Origin: a bacterium
GTDB lineage: Bacteria > Armatimonadota > UBA5829
Length of the DNA: 40,903 nucleotides
Direction of reading: 5' to 3'
NCBI GenBank assembly: GCA_021373255.1
Contig: JAJFTD010000191.1
Span: 1-40,903, forward strand
Both the position numbers and the translations under genes were made by a program. The notes beneath the pieces are model-generated. The model was not told where the DNA came from, did not search any database, and worked only from the letters and a program-made list of their open reading frames with translations. Shown here in pieces: positions 5,581-22,660 of this stretch. Positions within the stretch are counted from its first letter, which is position 1. Every line of letters starts with the position of its first letter.

Positions 5581-7713
5581 TCATTTCGTCAATATGTGAT
5601 ATAGTAGCATCCTTTGAATATCCTCTGTGGCTTGAGCTTCATTATGGAATGTGGTGTAGTGCACTTTTCCCTTTCCGTAAGAAAATGTCACACTAAGTGG
5701 TAATTCACCAAGGCTCCGGGAATTTGACCCTAATCTTGAGCCCGTTGAAGAATGCCAATGAATACCAGTTGACTTGGATGTTTCTGGTAGACCTAATACT
5801 GATCCATATATATCAACATTGACATCAGCGGCTACTGACCTTATGGGAACCCATCCGCTTAGATCATAGACTATACCAAGAGAGTTCTTTCCAAGATACT
5901 GGGCAAGAGATGAATTCACCACTCTCCCAGACACAGTCTGCTCATTGCCTATCTTTGCATCTTCAAAGAATGTCAGCATATCTGGGAATGCGTCTCTGAC
6001 AATCTCGTAAGCCCAATCTGAACAGTAAAGAATGCCACCTAGATTAACAAAATTTCTGAGTCGGCTAGCACCTTCACTAGTCATCGGGCTAATATCGTAA
6101 GAACAGTTTACACACACAATATCATACCCCGCTAAGCCAGACCAGTTCAAGATATCGTTCATATTAACGGTATCATAAGAAACGCCGACACGAACGAGCA
6201 GACTTCCTATATCATCATAACAAGCAGGTGTAACAGCAACTTGGCGGCTAGATACCTCATCAGAAGCTGAGATCGTACGCGAGGCACCAGCAGTTAGGCT
6301 AAAGCTAGACAGCGACGTTGGTTTCAGAACTGTTCCATTCGAAACTATCAGATCAAACGTCCCGCTAGGGAAACTCGTAGGTTGGCCAGGTTTAGTCTCA
6401 ATAAGAACTAATTTTCCTTGAGCTGTTTCAATTCCCCAGATATATTGTTTACCATTCTTGCTGATAAACTGCAAAGCATCTTTTACTTCAGTAATCAACG
6501 TACCTAAGCCTGACCAAATCCCATTTAGTCCATCACCTATAAGGTTGGCACCTTGACTCTCATACGTACCGATTATAACATCTTTGCCCGCCCCCACCAC
6601 ATCTTGGTTAAATGGACTATTTGGATTTGCAGTCAAATAAGCTGTCACTACATTATTGTACATGTAATAGGCATCGTCTCCAAAATCATTCCTTATCTCC
6701 TGAAGCGATGAATAACTACCAATCGGGTTCTGGGCTAACCAAGCGTTTACCTCTGGAACATCTTCACCTGCAAATACACGGTTTTTCAACTCAATACTCT
6801 CGTCAGCGCCCTTGCTAAATCGACTAGCGTTAGCGCCGAAATCCAGCCAGCCAAATAGGCCCCGCGAACCCGCTTGGTCATTATATTCAGAAACAGCCAT
6901 TAAGACATTTGCTAAAGCTCTACTGGCTTGCAGAGTTGCAGACAAATCCATATCAGCTTGCGCAGCCCTAGTTAGCTCCTCTATGCGGCGCGATCCTTCT
7001 TGAATGTTCACTGTTGATACTCTCATCGCAGATAAAGCTGTCCGCAGAGCTGAGGCTGCTTGGAAAGCCTGTTCAGAGTATTCCTGGAATGTAGCATCGC
7101 CCAGATCATTTGTATTTGGAATTAGATACCAAGTATACTGCGGTATTTCTGCTGATAAAACACTTGCTGACAACGCTTCGTATCCACTCTTTGTGATAGA
7201 AACCCATTGAACACCACTGCTCACACCTGTTGCCACAATACTACCATCAGATTCACTGGTGTATTGCCTATCAGCAATCTCAACTGCTGCTTCAGCAATA
7301 GGTTCACCAGTGAGCACATTAATCACACGGCCTTGGATAGTGACAGGCGTATCCTTGTGTAGCACAATGGACTTGTTAGTAGAACTATTTAGCGGTACCA
7401 TGACCGCAGCAGTTCTAGTATCTTGTCCATCGGAAGTTTCTAATGTCACTTGTCCGGAACCAACTCCCTTCAGAGTATAGGATCCATCCGACCCAGTCTT
7501 AACAGCCATACCAGTGCTCAACACACTCACCTGTGCATTGGCAATCCCTCGCCCGCTTCTTCCGTCTATTATTAGTCCAGTTATATCTCCCGTACCAGTT
7601 GAACCAACTCCATGATGTCCTCCGCCACCACCGCATCCAGCAAAGAACATCATGCAGAATGCAGCAACCAGCACTAATATAACAGCTTTGCTTTTTATAA
7701 CCTTTATTAACAC
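5581..7713 (-). CDS. Large lipoprotein with two carboxypeptidase-regulatory-like domains
   Basis: The protein has 710 residues. The start is GTG 7713 with AGGAGG eight bases upstream. A lipoprotein signal covers the first 27 residues, with a lipobox ending FFAGC and then a run of glycines. Two beta-sandwich domains of the carboxypeptidase regulatory type follow at about residues 42-115 (ITGLIIDGRSGRGIANAQVS) and 126-198 (IQGRVINVLTGEPIAEAAVE). A central helical part of about 220 residues is not recognised. The C-terminal 220 residues contain an alpha/beta segment (GYDIVCVNCSYD, FVNLGGILYCSDWAYE, GKGKVHYTTFHNEA) resembling glutamine-amidotransferase-like or ThuA-like folds used in surface proteins. 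It is probably anchored outside the cytoplasmic membrane. The gene reads AT-richer than the clpC region beside it. Confidence 0.75.
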   Translation of the reverse strand: MLIKVIKSKAVILVLVAAFCMMFFAGCGGGGGHHGVGSTGTGDITGLIIDGRSGRGIANAQVSVLSTGMAVKTGSDGSYTLKGVGSGQVTLETSDGQDTRTAAVMVPLNSSTNKSIVLHKDTPVTIQGRVINVLTGEPIAEAAVEIADRQYTSESDGSIVATGVSSGVQWVSITKSGYEALSASVLSAEIPQYTWYLIPNTNDLGDATFQEYSEQAFQAASALRTALSAMRVSTVNIQEGSRRIEELTRAAQADMDLSATLQASRALANVLMAVSEYNDQAGSRGLFGWLDFGANASRFSKGADESIELKNRVFAGEDVPEVNAWLAQNPIGSYSSLQEIRNDFGDDAYYMYNNVVTAYLTANPNSPFNQDVVGAGKDVIIGTYESQGANLIGDGLNGIWSGLGTLITEVKDALQFISKNGKQYIWGIETAQGKLVLIETKPGQPTSFPSGTFDLIVSNGTVLKPTSLSSFSLTAGASRTISASDEVSSRQVAVTPACYDDIGSLLVRVGVSYDTVNMNDILNWSGLAGYDIVCVNCSYDISPMTSEGASRLRNFVNLGGILYCSDWAYEIVRDAFPDMLTFFEDAKIGNEQTVSGRVVNSSLAQYLGKNSLGIVYDLSGWVPIRSVAADVNVDIYGSVLGLPETSKSTGIHWHSSTGSRLGSNSRSLGELPLSVTFSYGKGKVHYTTFHNEAQATEDIQRMLLYHILTK

Positions 7714-8231: not shown

Positions 8232-10703
<2,472 letters not shown>

Positions 10704-14981: not shown

Positions 14982-15944
14982 TTACGCCCACCACATTTCG
15001 CCGGCAGACTCCGTAACCATAACTTCTTTAAGGAATGACACGGCTTTCTGGAAGCCTTCGTTCACCGACATCAGGCCGTCTTCATGCTCGATTGAGAGCA
15101 CTGAGTCGTAGCCGATCATCTTTAGCGTGCTTATCATATCTTTCCAGACCTGGTAGCCATGGCCATATCCGACTGTGCGGAAGATCCAGCTCCGGGTCAG
15201 CACATCGCCGTAGTGTTTGGTATCATTACATCCATTCACTGCGACGTTATATTTATCCACCTTGCAGTCTTTAGCATGGACGTGGAAGATTGCATCTCCG
15301 AGCGTGCGAATGGCTGCGACTGGGTCTACACCGTTCCAGAACAGGTGGCTGGGATCGAAATTGCAGCCCAGGTTCTCACCTACGGCATCGCGCAGCTTGA
15401 GCATTGTGTCTACATTATATACACAGAACCCCGGATGCATCTCAAACGCAACTTTGACCCCGTTATCCTCAAGGAATTTGCTCTGCTCTTTCCAATACGG
15501 GACCAATACTTCTTCCCACTGCCACTTCAGGGTGTCAGTGAAATCCGGCGGCCATGCGCAGGTAACCCAGTTCGGGGTCTTATCGTCCGGACTACCACCG
15601 GGGCAGCCGGAAAAGGTTACGACAGTATCTACACCCAACTCTTTAGCAAGCTGGACGGTCTTTCTGAACGTCTCATGATCCCTTGCGGCAAATGCTTTGT
15701 CAGGATGGACCGGGTTTCCGTGGCAAGAGAGGGCGCTGATGCTAAGCCCTCTAGACTCTACCGCATTCAGGAATTCCTTTTGAGCGGAAGCATTACCAAG
15801 CAGCTTATCCGGGTCGCAATGTGCATTACCGGGATAGCCTCCAGTACCAAACTCCACCATCTGGACCCCGGATTGAGCAATATAATCCAGCGCGCGTTCC
15901 AACGACTGCTGGGCGAATAATACAGTAAATACGCCAATCTTCAT
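14982..15944 (-). CDS. Sugar phosphate isomerase/epimerase-like TIM-barrel enzyme
   Basis: The protein has 320 residues and belongs to the AP-endonuclease-2/xylose-isomerase-like family. Metal ligands are visible on successive strands: Glu in VKVAFEMHPG, Asp and His in GCNFDPSHLFW, His in FHVHAKDCKV and Glu in VLSIEHED. These enzymes isomerise or epimerise sugars or inositol derivatives; the N-terminal segment FTVLFAQQSLERALDYIAQS and GLSISALSCHGNPVHPD resemble that group. ATG 15944 is chosen because AGGAGG lies ten bases upstream; an upstream start at 15977 would add 11 unlikely residues. The gene lies next to the sulfatase on the same strand, about 210 bases apart. Confidence 0.85.
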   Translation of the reverse strand: MKIGVFTVLFAQQSLERALDYIAQSGVQMVEFGTGGYPGNAHCDPDKLLGNASAQKEFLNAVESRGLSISALSCHGNPVHPDKAFAARDHETFRKTVQLAKELGVDTVVTFSGCPGGSPDDKTPNWVTCAWPPDFTDTLKWQWEEVLVPYWKEQSKFLEDNGVKVAFEMHPGFCVYNVDTMLKLRDAVGENLGCNFDPSHLFWNGVDPVAAIRTLGDAIFHVHAKDCKVDKYNVAVNGCNDTKHYGDVLTRSWIFRTVGYGHGYQVWKDMISTLKMIGYDSVLSIEHEDGLMSVNEGFQKAVSFLKEVMVTESAGEMWWA

Positions 15945-16036
15945 AAGGCTCTGTCCTCCTGGTTCGATGATGGACATGACAAACTGCCATTCTTAAGGGG
16001 CATTATAGTTCTTTTACGCGTCGAAATCAAGAGACG

Positions 16037-16134
16037 GTCCGAGCTGTCCAGAAGTCCGTGGGTCCGAAGATCCGGGGGCAGTCTACTCCAACCCTCATTC
16101 CCCATCTCCCAGCCCCACACCATCTCCCAGCCCC
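16037..16134 (+). repeat. Short direct repeats: 8-bp GTCC phase and an 18-bp period pair
   Basis: GTCC or ATCC recurs at 16037, 16046, 16054, 16062 and 16070, an octamer phase with one extra base. Then CCATCTCCCAGCCCC occurs twice, at 16102 and 16120, with an 18-bp period. This fills the gap between the sugar isomerase and the duplicated TPR segment. Confidence 0.5.
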
Positions 16135-16460
16135 TATCATTGACACTGAACAGTCCGGTGGATATACTGAGCTTGAGTGGTTGCTCTTGCCGCTACTCTT
16201 ATTGCAGGTGACGTTCAATGCCTGATACTGCGGAACAATATAAGCTTGAAGTAGAGGCTTTTAAGGCTGGAAACACCGACACGGCCATTGAAGAGGTGAC
16301 TCGTCTCGACCACCAGAATCACAGGACATTCAGCTACCTTGGCGCGGCTTATCAACACAGCCATTGGGGCATTCAAGCAGGCTGAACAGATAGCACCCCG
16401 TGTAGCCAGCATCCATTTCAACATCGCCCAGAACTATGAAGCAAGTGGCATACCCAACGA
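16135..16460 (+). repeat. Direct repeat copy A (leader plus broken TPR gene)
   Basis: This segment matches 18476-18825 over its full length, including about 80 bases upstream of the TPR start codon. It starts with ATCATTGACACTGAA in both copies and ends at CCCAACGA in both. Copy A carries internal deletions. The repeats flank the exported STN-like gene 16470-18383. Confidence 0.85.
16218..16460 (+). pseudogene. Truncated copy of the TPR gene at 18557-18925
   Basis: The copy keeps the ATG, the ribosome site AGGTGA and most of the first two TPR units. Two deletions separate it from the intact gene: nine bases lost in the segment encoding AIEALEEV (now AIEEV, in frame), and 17 bases lost after GAAYA, which shifts the frame and brings a TGA at 16383. 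Homology carries on out of frame to CCCAACGA at 16460, where it ends abruptly nine bases before the next gene's start codon. A translated product would be about 55 residues and would lack the third repeat. I read it as a relic of a duplication, not a working gene. Confidence 0.85.
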
Positions 16461-16469
16461 GAGGTTATC

Positions 16470-18383
16470 ATGTATCGTAAAATAGGCTTTACGCTCACTC
16501 TGACTCTTGCAGTGTGCTTTGGATGTTGTAATGCTTGGGGAGTTGGTAAAATAACAACTGACCCGAATGCATCGAATCCGCCTAGTACGGAGGTGAGCAT
16601 GGGCAATGATGATGCCAGGCTATCTCAGAAAATTTCCTACTGTGCAACTCACAAAAGTGTATTATCCATACTAACCAACCTTTCGGATATAAGCAAAGTT
16701 AAGTTGAGAGCTGGCTTGAACAATAACGATTGGCAGGTTAGAGATCGCAGGATGAATATCTATGCAAAAGATACGACTCTTGCAGATCTGATGAATTCTA
16801 TCGCTTCGGTTATGAAGTTCACATGGAGCAAAAATAGTGAGTCTAATCCTCCTTCGTACCGGCTTTATATGAAGAGAGCTGATGTAATTGCTGTTGAGAA
16901 CAAGGCTTTAGCTGAAGCACAGAAATACACCGAGAAAAAAGAGGCCATACTCGAGAAGCTCGACGATGCATCTGAGGTGTCACCGGACGCATTGGACAAA
17001 TTGAAGAATGATAATCCTTATCTGTATGCGCAGACCGTGAGCGGAGCGTACAACGCCCTAAAAGATTTCTTTGGTGCATATCCTCCGGCGAAAGAGGCGT
17101 TTTTGTCCGGACAAGAGGTTAGTATTGCAGCTGTTACTCTGCCGGAAGCCGCTAGAAATGCTCTTTACGAACTACTGAGTGCGAACTGGAAGATTAATCC
17201 TATGGCTGATGGTGATTTTCCTGAAGGTGAGGCAAACAATTTCGCATTTAAAACACTGGTAATAGAAGGAGCGAATTCTAGACTTCAGTATAGAGGAGTG
17301 TATAAAACAGCTAGTGGTGACTTGAATGGTATGATGATGAATGCAAACATATATGATCCTTCCAGCGATAAGGCAAAAGTACAAGGGCTCTGTCAGATAG
17401 CGGCGCTGGAAGGAAAGTCGAGGGAAGAAATCTTTGCCGAGTTTGATATAATCCATGACAAAGTTAGAATTGAGAGTACAGCCAGACAGAGTGGTGATTC
17501 CGACAAATCATCTTCAACAAGCGACACGGAGCCATTAAAGGATGATTTTATCACTTCATCCTCGGATGATCCTGCGCTTAAGAAACTGGTTGAGTTTATG
17601 ATCGACAGTAATACAGATCATTGTGGTTTGTTGTCGGATTATTTGAAAGCTATTGCCGACATATCTGGTTTTGCTGTTGTGTCTGATTCTTTTCCTAACG
17701 CAGAATATAGAGCTAATTTCCCCAAAAATGAGCTTGAAGTAAAGCAGATTATAGATAAGATTGCCCTGGAAAACTCGTATAAGTGGAAGAAGCACAACGG
17801 TGTAATAGAATTTCGAGACAACGATTGGTATAAGAAACGGAGTCTTCAGATCCCCGACGCGTGGCTAAATGAATGGAAAAACGAGTGCATAAATACGGGT
17901 ACTCTTGATATTAAGTCACTTACTGAGATTTCAGCCTTAACAAAAGAACAGTTTGATTTCAACTTTCATAATGATGAAGTTCTACGATGTGTGCTGATTA
18001 GATATCCTGATGCTGATATGAATGCATTTATGGAATTCTATAATGCTCTTGATAATGACAAACTTCGTGTTGCCAGCAGCAAGTCAGGGCTCGATATTAA
18101 TATTCTTAACCAGGATGAAATGTCGAAGCTTACAAAGATGATTGGGATCGGAGCGAATTCGTGGATTCTTGAGCGGATGAAAAAGTATCCGGATAAAATC
18201 ATGCTTAGGTTGGATAGACAGCTACCGAGTTCTGGGCATTCTATTACATACAGATTTCTTGGATTAATACCGTGGTTATTTACTATCGATTATGTTCCAT
18301 CTCCAGGAGTAAACTTTGGATATTTATTTACTCCTGAATATATAAAACCAAAGCCAGATAAGCAGTTGATGAACAATCAATGA
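16470..18383 (+). CDS. Exported protein with two STN-like domains
   Basis: The protein has 637 residues. A signal peptide covers about residues 1-24 (MYRKIGFTLTLTLAVCFGCC, then NAWG). Two related modules are visible. The first, at about 50-135, reads SVLSILTNLSDISKVKLRAG...MNIYAKDTTLADLMNSIASV; the second, at about 365-450, reads LLSDYLKAIADISGFAVVSD...NELEVKQIIDKIALENSYKW. This pattern is that of secretin/TonB short N-terminal (STN) domains, which act in the periplasm. A helical, Lys/Glu-rich region (140-160) and a Ser/Asp-rich linker (about 345-365) separate them. No secretin channel follows. ATG 16470 follows AGAGG at five bases. The gene sits between two copies of a TPR gene segment and reads AT-richer than its neighbours. 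Its role is unknown. Confidence 0.75.
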   Translation: MYRKIGFTLTLTLAVCFGCCNAWGVGKITTDPNASNPPSTEVSMGNDDARLSQKISYCATHKSVLSILTNLSDISKVKLRAGLNNNDWQVRDRRMNIYAKDTTLADLMNSIASVMKFTWSKNSESNPPSYRLYMKRADVIAVENKALAEAQKYTEKKEAILEKLDDASEVSPDALDKLKNDNPYLYAQTVSGAYNALKDFFGAYPPAKEAFLSGQEVSIAAVTLPEAARNALYELLSANWKINPMADGDFPEGEANNFAFKTLVIEGANSRLQYRGVYKTASGDLNGMMMNANIYDPSSDKAKVQGLCQIAALEGKSREEIFAEFDIIHDKVRIESTARQSGDSDKSSSTSDTEPLKDDFITSSSDDPALKKLVEFMIDSNTDHCGLLSDYLKAIADISGFAVVSDSFPNAEYRANFPKNELEVKQIIDKIALENSYKWKKHNGVIEFRDNDWYKKRSLQIPDAWLNEWKNECINTGTLDIKSLTEISALTKEQFDFNFHNDEVLRCVLIRYPDADMNAFMEFYNALDNDKLRVASSKSGLDINILNQDEMSKLTKMIGIGANSWILERMKKYPDKIMLRLDRQLPSSGHSITYRFLGLIPWLFTIDYVPSPGVNFGYLFTPEYIKPKPDKQLMNNQ

Positions 18384-18418
18384 CCAAGAGGAGAAAGTAA
18401 CCCTCCCGAATATTGCAT

Positions 18419-18453
18419 AACCTCCAGAGTGATGTGAAGTTAGCTGGAGGTTT
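18419..18453 (+). terminator. Hairpin terminator after the STN-like gene
   Basis: AACCTCCAG (18419-18427) and CTGGAGGTT (18444-18452) are perfect complements with a 16-base loop and a short T run. It lies 36 bases after the stop of the STN-like gene. Confidence 0.6.
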
Positions 18454-18475
18454 ACACATAATTCAGGGCACCCCC

Positions 18476-18825
18476 ATCATTGACACTGAACACCCAGGCG
18501 GATATACTGAGCTTGGGCGGTTGCTTCGACGCTACTCTTATTGCAGGTGACGTTCAATGCCTGATACTGCGGAACAATATAAACTTGGAGTAGAGGCCTT
18601 TAAGGCTGGAAACACCGATACGGCTATTGAAGCCCTTGAGGAAGTGACTCGCCTCGACCACCAGAATCACAGGGCATTCAGCTACCTTGGCGCGGCTTAT
18701 GCCGCAAAAGGCAGGTTCAATGCAGCCATTGGGGCTTTCAAGCAGGCTGAACAGATAGCACCCCGTGTAGCCAGCATCCATTTCAACATCGCCCAGGCCT
18801 ATGAAGCTAGCGGCATACCCAACGA
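18476..18825 (+). repeat. Direct repeat copy B (leader plus intact TPR gene start)
   Basis: This is the second copy of the 16135-16460 segment. It is 24 bases longer because it lacks the deletions seen in copy A. It contains the leader and the first 90 codons of the intact TPR gene. Confidence 0.85.
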
Positions 18826-18925
18826 AGCCGAATATGAGTATGAGCGCGCGCTTGAAATCGATCCCAACTACACACGGGCTCGCGAAGCACTGGATGTGCT
18901 GAAGAAGAAGTTGGGGCATGTCTGA
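18557..18925 (+). CDS. Small TPR-repeat protein
   Basis: The protein has 122 residues, almost all of it three tetratricopeptide repeats: EQYKLGVEAFKAGNTDTAIE, then HRAFSYLGAAYAAKGRFNAA, then ASIHFNIAQAYEASGIPNEA, followed by a capping helix. The canonical TPR pattern (W/L-G/A-Y-A-P) is clear in the second and third units. There is no signal peptide, so it acts in the cytoplasm as a protein-binding adaptor. ATG 18557 is preceded by AGGTGA at seven bases. An inactive copy lies 2.3 kb upstream. It converges with the prenyl synthase gene, and the 45 bases between them form a heptamer array. Confidence 0.85.
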   Translation: MPDTAEQYKLGVEAFKAGNTDTAIEALEEVTRLDHQNHRAFSYLGAAYAAKGRFNAAIGAFKQAEQIAPRVASIHFNIAQAYEASGIPNEAEYEYERALEIDPNYTRAREALDVLKKKLGHV

Positions 18926-21928: not shown

Positions 21929-22660
21929 GTGTTGGATAAAATAGGCGAATCAAAGAGGCTAGCAGACTACTGCCTGATGCGAATGATGCTCAAGTGGGCC
22001 GGATACTTAGTCATCTACATGGGCGTTTTTACTGTGATCAATAGTATTGTTGTTTTCAAAACAATTCCTAGAGACGGTGTTCAACTCATAATAGGTTTCA
22101 TAGTGCTGATTTTGGGAATCTTGCTTATCAAAGCACCTTCGGCAAACATAATGCTTGCCGTGGGTTGTTTTTTCTTTTTGATCTTAATCTGGAATGGTTA
22201 TACATTCACACTTAAAACTTTTACCGCCGGCCAACATTTTAACCAATGGCCGATGGCCATTCTTGTTTGTGTCGTTTCAGGATGCATATTCATCAAATAT
22301 TATAAGCGGTTCGTTTGTCTCAGGGATTTTGAACCATCTCAACAGGCAGTCGCTGACATGGACAAGTTGATAACCAACACAGTCAAAGGCGACCCTGAAA
22401 AAGATAACGATCTTATTGAGTTCTTCACGCATAAAATGCACTGGAAAAGCAGGCTGATGGAAGATGCTGCTCTTATTGTAGAAACCAGACGCATTGATCT
22501 CGCATATACCGGCAGAGATCAATTCAACATAACAGACAATGGCAATAAGTTCATGAGCAAGTTCAGGAAGATCACAGTTTATACGGATGATCGCAAATTG
22601 ACTGGGCAGATAGCTCCAGAGCAGTTAGAGAAATACCAGACTTGGAAAGACCGTATTTAG
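21929..22660 (+). CDS. Four-helix membrane protein with C-terminal cytoplasmic domain, unknown
   Basis: The protein has 243 residues and I do not recognise its family. Residues 15-120 hold four hydrophobic segments (AGYLVIYMGVFTVINSIVVF, VQLIIGFIVLILGILLI, NIMLAVGCFFFLILIW, WPMAILVCVVSGCIFI). The remaining 120 residues are soluble and mixed alpha/beta, with the segments AALIVETRRIDLAY and KITVYTDDRKLTGQIAPEQL. That part may hold a small YcxB- or PH-like beta domain, but this is only an impression. The start is GTG 21929, with GGAG five bases upstream; TTG 21932 follows directly. It stands alone between the acetolactate decarboxylase and a convergent UroD-like gene. Confidence 0.6.
   Translation: MLDKIGESKRLADYCLMRMMLKWAGYLVIYMGVFTVINSIVVFKTIPRDGVQLIIGFIVLILGILLIKAPSANIMLAVGCFFFLILIWNGYTFTLKTFTAGQHFNQWPMAILVCVVSGCIFIKYYKRFVCLRDFEPSQQAVADMDKLITNTVKGDPEKDNDLIEFFTHKMHWKSRLMEDAALIVETRRIDLAYTGRDQFNITDNGNKFMSKFRKITVYTDDRKLTGQIAPEQLEKYQTWKDRI

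Follow-up and report, generated by a model that had tools for sequence, protein, structure and literature searches.

The window, the 40,903-nucleotide stretch of DNA that was analysed as a whole, belongs to G000, a genome of 4.19 Mb in 201 contigs, and carries a gene for a TPR protein whose start is present twice on the same strand. The two copies of that start, copy A (16131-16460) and copy B (18471-18825), are direct repeats with 86.5% identity over 356 alignment columns (E 6.6e-102); 2340 bases separate the start of one from the start of the other, and a single long gene, here called the cargo, lies between them. The features of the locus are as follows.

16003..16032, no strand: left flank of the ancestral site, also conserved in G001 and G002, upstream of their single TPR gene (GGCATTATAGTT...AAATCAAG)
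16131..16460, forward strand: copy A, comprising promoter, leader and a truncated, frameshifted TPR start (repeat alignment)
16140..16168, forward strand: putative copy A promoter, sigma-70-type, TTGACA-N17-TATACT (pattern scan; like the promoter ahead of TPR in relatives)
16218..16385, forward strand: disrupted 55-aa TPR frame within copy A (9- and 17-base deletions)
16461..16464, forward strand: Shine-Dalgarno-like GAGG at the cargo edge, directly 3' of repeat A (sequence)
16470..18383, forward strand: cargo gene, 637 aa, with a signal-peptide-like N-terminus and two STN/N0-like domains at residues ~50-135 and ~360-450 (ORF, predicted fold)
18419..18452, forward strand: hairpin (z -2.5) lying 3' of the cargo stop and 5' of copy B, with a stem of 9 bp (AACCTCCAG/CTGGAGGTT) and a weak T tail
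18471..18825, forward strand: copy B, comprising promoter, leader and codons 1-90 of the intact TPR gene (repeat alignment)
18480..18508, forward strand: putative copy B promoter, TTGACA-N17-TATACT (same boxes as copy A)
18557..18925, forward strand: complete TPR gene (122 aa), orthologous to the one that relatives carry in single copy (~67-77% identity, nine aligned)

The duplicated TPR start

A sequence-only reading of this DNA had proposed that the start of the TPR gene is duplicated around an STN-like gene. The duplication is real, as judged by the strength of the alignment and by the finding that neither the segment nor its promoter has a third copy elsewhere in the 4.19-Mb genome. Both copies were placed correctly by that reading, apart from a start set 4-5 bases too late: the match already begins in a CCCC run immediately 5' of the -35 box. 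Alignment of the copies bears out the 9-base and 17-base deletions assigned to the first of them, as well as the end of its match at CCCAACGA (base 16460), nine bases 5' of the ATG at 16470. The duplicated part is thus the promoter and the first two thirds of the TPR gene. Pairs of this type are rare in the 483 kb of loci from G000 and its relatives that we scanned: apart from A and B, the same-strand repeats of at least 100 bases were one intergenic repeat in G001 and, in G003 and G004, STN-family members arranged in tandem.

The copies differ at 25 of 329 ungapped columns (7.6%). In copy A, the 9-base deletion is in frame and the 17-base deletion causes a frameshift, and three conserved TPR residues that copy B retains, Gly11, Ala40 and Ala81, are altered (G11E, A40T and A81N). 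Each promoter matches 11 of the 12 consensus positions, each copy starts a few bases 5' of TTGACA, and a promoter with the same boxes precedes the TPR gene in all nine relatives aligned. Between A and B, 0 of the 12 box bases have changed (~0.9 expected). Copy A has therefore decayed as coding sequence with its promoter-like boxes intact. The copies also share identical runs of 60 and 53 bases, the latter extending from the leader into codon 9, and this run and the unchanged boxes may hint at selection on copy A. Recombination between the two copies could possibly delete the cargo.

The single-copy site and the age of the event

To the left of the duplication lies a sugar-isomerase-like gene (14982-15977; Pfam AP_endonuc_2), and to the right a gene for a polyprenyl synthase. 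The single-copy arrangement that the sequence-only reading proposed to look for in relatives is present in three genomes of the same family (G006, G010 and G013), where both flanking genes surround one TPR gene with no insert; an insert common to all relatives, which that reading had named as evidence against itself, was sought and not found. In G002, a member of the same genus (contig record DJHI01000205.1, Armatimonadetes bacterium UBA5829), the left neighbour of the TPR gene is retained. The three empty sites, together with the left flank in G002, indicate that the single-copy arrangement is ancestral. In G000, copy A lies beside the ancestral left neighbour and copy B beside the ancestral right neighbour, and GGCATTATAGTT...AAATCAAG occurs ahead of copy A only.

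At third codon positions, copies A and B differ at 10 of 81 sites (12%), compared with 52-59 of 89 (~60%) between copy B and the relatives. Divergence of the copies is far below that between species, which dates the event after G000 had separated from every relative sampled. Should the second TPR segment stem from a diverged strain, some of the 7.6% difference would predate the event.

The cargo gene, its family and its origin

The cargo reading frame (16470-18383) is open throughout and has its own putative ribosome-binding site; the edge of the cargo coincides exactly with this Shine-Dalgarno sequence. The hairpin downstream (18419-18452) was absent from the terminator calls of a pattern scan and, because its T tail is short, might at best possibly act as a terminator. 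The encoded protein has no Pfam or NCBIfam match and no hit to an STN model up to E = 1, and the profile of its family gives a weak hit to the PilQ N0 domain (E 0.056). Two STN/N0-like domains appear in the structures predicted for the full-length protein (pLDDT 80) and for residues 360-637 (pLDDT 83). Residues 55-135 resemble 4m0n (Z 6.8, 1.6 A over 73) and the second domain resembles 3gr5 (Z 9.2, 2.3 A over 84) as well as DotD, PilQ and FpvA, these being moderate Z scores obtained with predicted models. The label "STN-like" given to the gene from its sequence is thus backed by predicted fold, not by Pfam or NCBIfam. The predicted layout is that of an exported protein of ~640 aa with a largely helical region between the two domains. 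In having two such folds, the cargo protein would be similar to STN and secretin N0 proteins (PilQ, EscC, FpvA and the C-terminal domain of FecR-type anti-sigma factors); unlike these, it has no recognised secretin pore or TonB receptor barrel and no Pfam match.

Predicted exported proteins of ~640 aa with two STN/N0-like domains form a family that is widespread in this Armatimonadota class (16470-18383 and L012-L018), with eight members in G000. When 151 genomes of the phylum were sampled, matches to the family profile were found in 20 of the 21 class genomes listed (G000 counted) and, at lower strength, in 26 others. Most aligned members carry the motif GKxTVDPN straight after the signal peptide. 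In the family tree the cargo sits on a long end branch with no ortholog, and its G+C content (0.408, and 0.39 at third positions) is the lowest among the members examined, the others lying at 0.45-0.55. As A+T-rich gene sequence occurs elsewhere in the window (5581-7713, third positions 0.353), composition is a weaker sign of transfer. A further A+T-rich frame (21929-22660, 243 aa, G+C 0.41) has hydrophobic stretches and is without a Pfam match.

No ortholog of the cargo was found in relatives, and no donor among the named genomes or among 28 genomes of the class, in which the best matches, covering most of its length, reach 35-38% identity; identity to the nearest full-length relatives is ~30-38%. 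The genomes and collections searched contained no donor molecule with the cargo beside TPR sequence. An origin from a phage, plasmid or virus was considered and rejected, there being no match in phages, plasmids or viral contigs. The sequence-only reading had called the gene foreign. It is indeed compositionally odd and has no ortholog, but its family is resident in G000 and in the clade. The cargo is either an odd resident of this family that has changed place or one gained from a relative outside the sample.

Formation of the locus

We consider this locus to be, probably, a genuine insertion-duplication specific to the lineage, and we favour with moderate confidence the reading in which the TPR promoter was captured ahead of the cargo. 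A 2.0-kb segment comprising the ribosome-binding site, the cargo gene and the hairpin would have entered the TPR locus together with a second ~350-bp TPR copy. This could have occurred through one crossover with a circular or circularised fragment carrying 350 bp of TPR DNA, or through a template switch at a replication fork followed by return. The intact TPR gene has kept a complete promoter in copy B, and the original promoter, in copy A, now lies ahead of the broken TPR fragment and then the cargo. Because the copy A promoter is on the same strand and upstream, the cargo is placed for transcription from it, and we infer that it is so transcribed. The suggestion that the cargo stands behind a copy of the TPR leader and promoter holds well, in that a full copy with the conserved boxes TTGACA-N17-TATACT is present, and the single-copy arrangement in relatives supports the earlier proposal that the duplication captured a gene between its two copies. 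Several recombination routes would give the same final order, each leaving the cargo behind a second TPR promoter and the TPR gene whole behind its own, such that the product does not tell the route; what we say of the route, and of any benefit, we infer.

Both elements of this reading have precedents. In E. coli, circularised non-replicating DNA integrates by a single crossover with flanking duplications of 109-950 bp (PMC3240628), and, as in those products, the insert here lies between direct duplications of the target, of which one is truncated and the other runs into the intact gene. Unlike those products, the TPR-locus case is natural and older (copies 7.6% apart) and lacks plasmid sequence, and the genomes searched yielded no donor for it. 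A spontaneous duplication that captures a promoter is known to switch on transferred genes (Cit+ in E. coli; TDAH) (PMC11111574). There too, a duplicated promoter segment and a truncated gene lie ahead of a gene able to use the promoter; in contrast to the TPR locus, which has one cargo copy and is read from sequence alone, the cargo in those cases is also tandem-duplicated. The TPR locus represents a known route of gene relocation and control change, not a new system, and is of an ordinary kind, neatly preserved.

An identical final order is predicted if the cargo first lay just upstream of the TPR promoter and a 2.36-kb unit (cargo, promoter and TPR codons 1-90) was doubled, after which the first cargo was lost. 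Such tandem duplications form without homology and capture promoters (PMC11111574), and the distance from AAATCAAG to the copy A -35 box, ~107 bases compared with ~28 in G001 and G002, is possibly a scar of the loss. However, one additional deletion is required, and the extra 80 bases have no meaningful match to the cargo or elsewhere in G000; a remnant of the first cargo was looked for left of copy A and none was found. We regard this history as somewhat unlikely. It is less probable still, to the point of being doubtful, that two independent events were involved, the TPR start having long ago undergone a partial tandem duplication and the cargo having inserted between the copies afterwards. 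Such partial duplications in tandem are common, and the cargo family has tandem copies in G003 and G004, yet the cargo edges are the repeat edges on both sides, which is simpler under one event, and no relative examined has a tandem TPR duplication.

The behaviour of the family also bears on the idea of the STN gene as a mobile element or cassette in its own right, one whose insertion would duplicate the target. The family is scattered and differs in size between genomes (1-21 matches in each genome that has it), with no widely recurrent gene neighbours for most members. Against this, tight long flanking direct repeats were found at none of ~30 other members examined, suggesting that the family does not travel by target duplication. 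Nor is there a transposase or recombinase frame between copies A and B, where the one long reading frame has no transposase match; the cargo edges have no exact terminal inverted repeat of at least 9 bases and no pair of attC cores (RYYYAAC, GTTRRRY), no such core occurs from the cargo stop to copy B, and phages, plasmids and viral contigs gave no hits. We therefore consider a mobile element very improbable. An apparent second repeat-flanked case at L078 was rejected: the repeat there (1923-2122 and 8984-9183; G001) is an intergenic 200-bp element of stacked hairpins, with copies 81% identical, situated 2-3 kb from the gene. Finally, an assembly artefact or strain chimera would be favoured by the fragmentation of G000 (201 contigs), which is probably a metagenome bin. 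The copies nonetheless differ by 25 substitutions and two deletions with one-sided decay, and both flanks are the ancestral neighbours, when a chimeric join should leave one hybrid copy; to an artefact we attach next to no probability.

Under the favoured insertion-duplication, the locus shows in nature, and in datable form, how a gene came to stand behind a duplicated promoter, and the unoccupied site can be read alongside the intact and the decayed copy. A further point of interest is a large family of predicted exported proteins in Armatimonadota, with two STN domains, that falls outside Pfam and NCBIfam models. A bolder and rather improbable idea is that these are fast-diversifying exported adaptors or receptors whose new members would gain constitutive control through captured housekeeping promoters, the TPR locus being the fossil of one such step.

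Several other features of the family were observed. Tandem members in G003 and G004 (L082:4821-8631 and L090:1-2250) contain DNA stretches that are 76-85% identical, which shows that family members have duplicated locally. Short palindromes with the core GG[CT]ATTC[CT]TGCC are absent from the G000 loci and occur in G003 and G004, mostly near STN genes (L067, L069, L087, L092, L095 and L097), and hairpins of the form CCTCCAGGTA...CTGGAGG are recurrent in G004. In the same genome, one family member (L088:4283-6430) has a C-terminal extension resembling TPR repeats, which may connect TPR proteins with the STN family.
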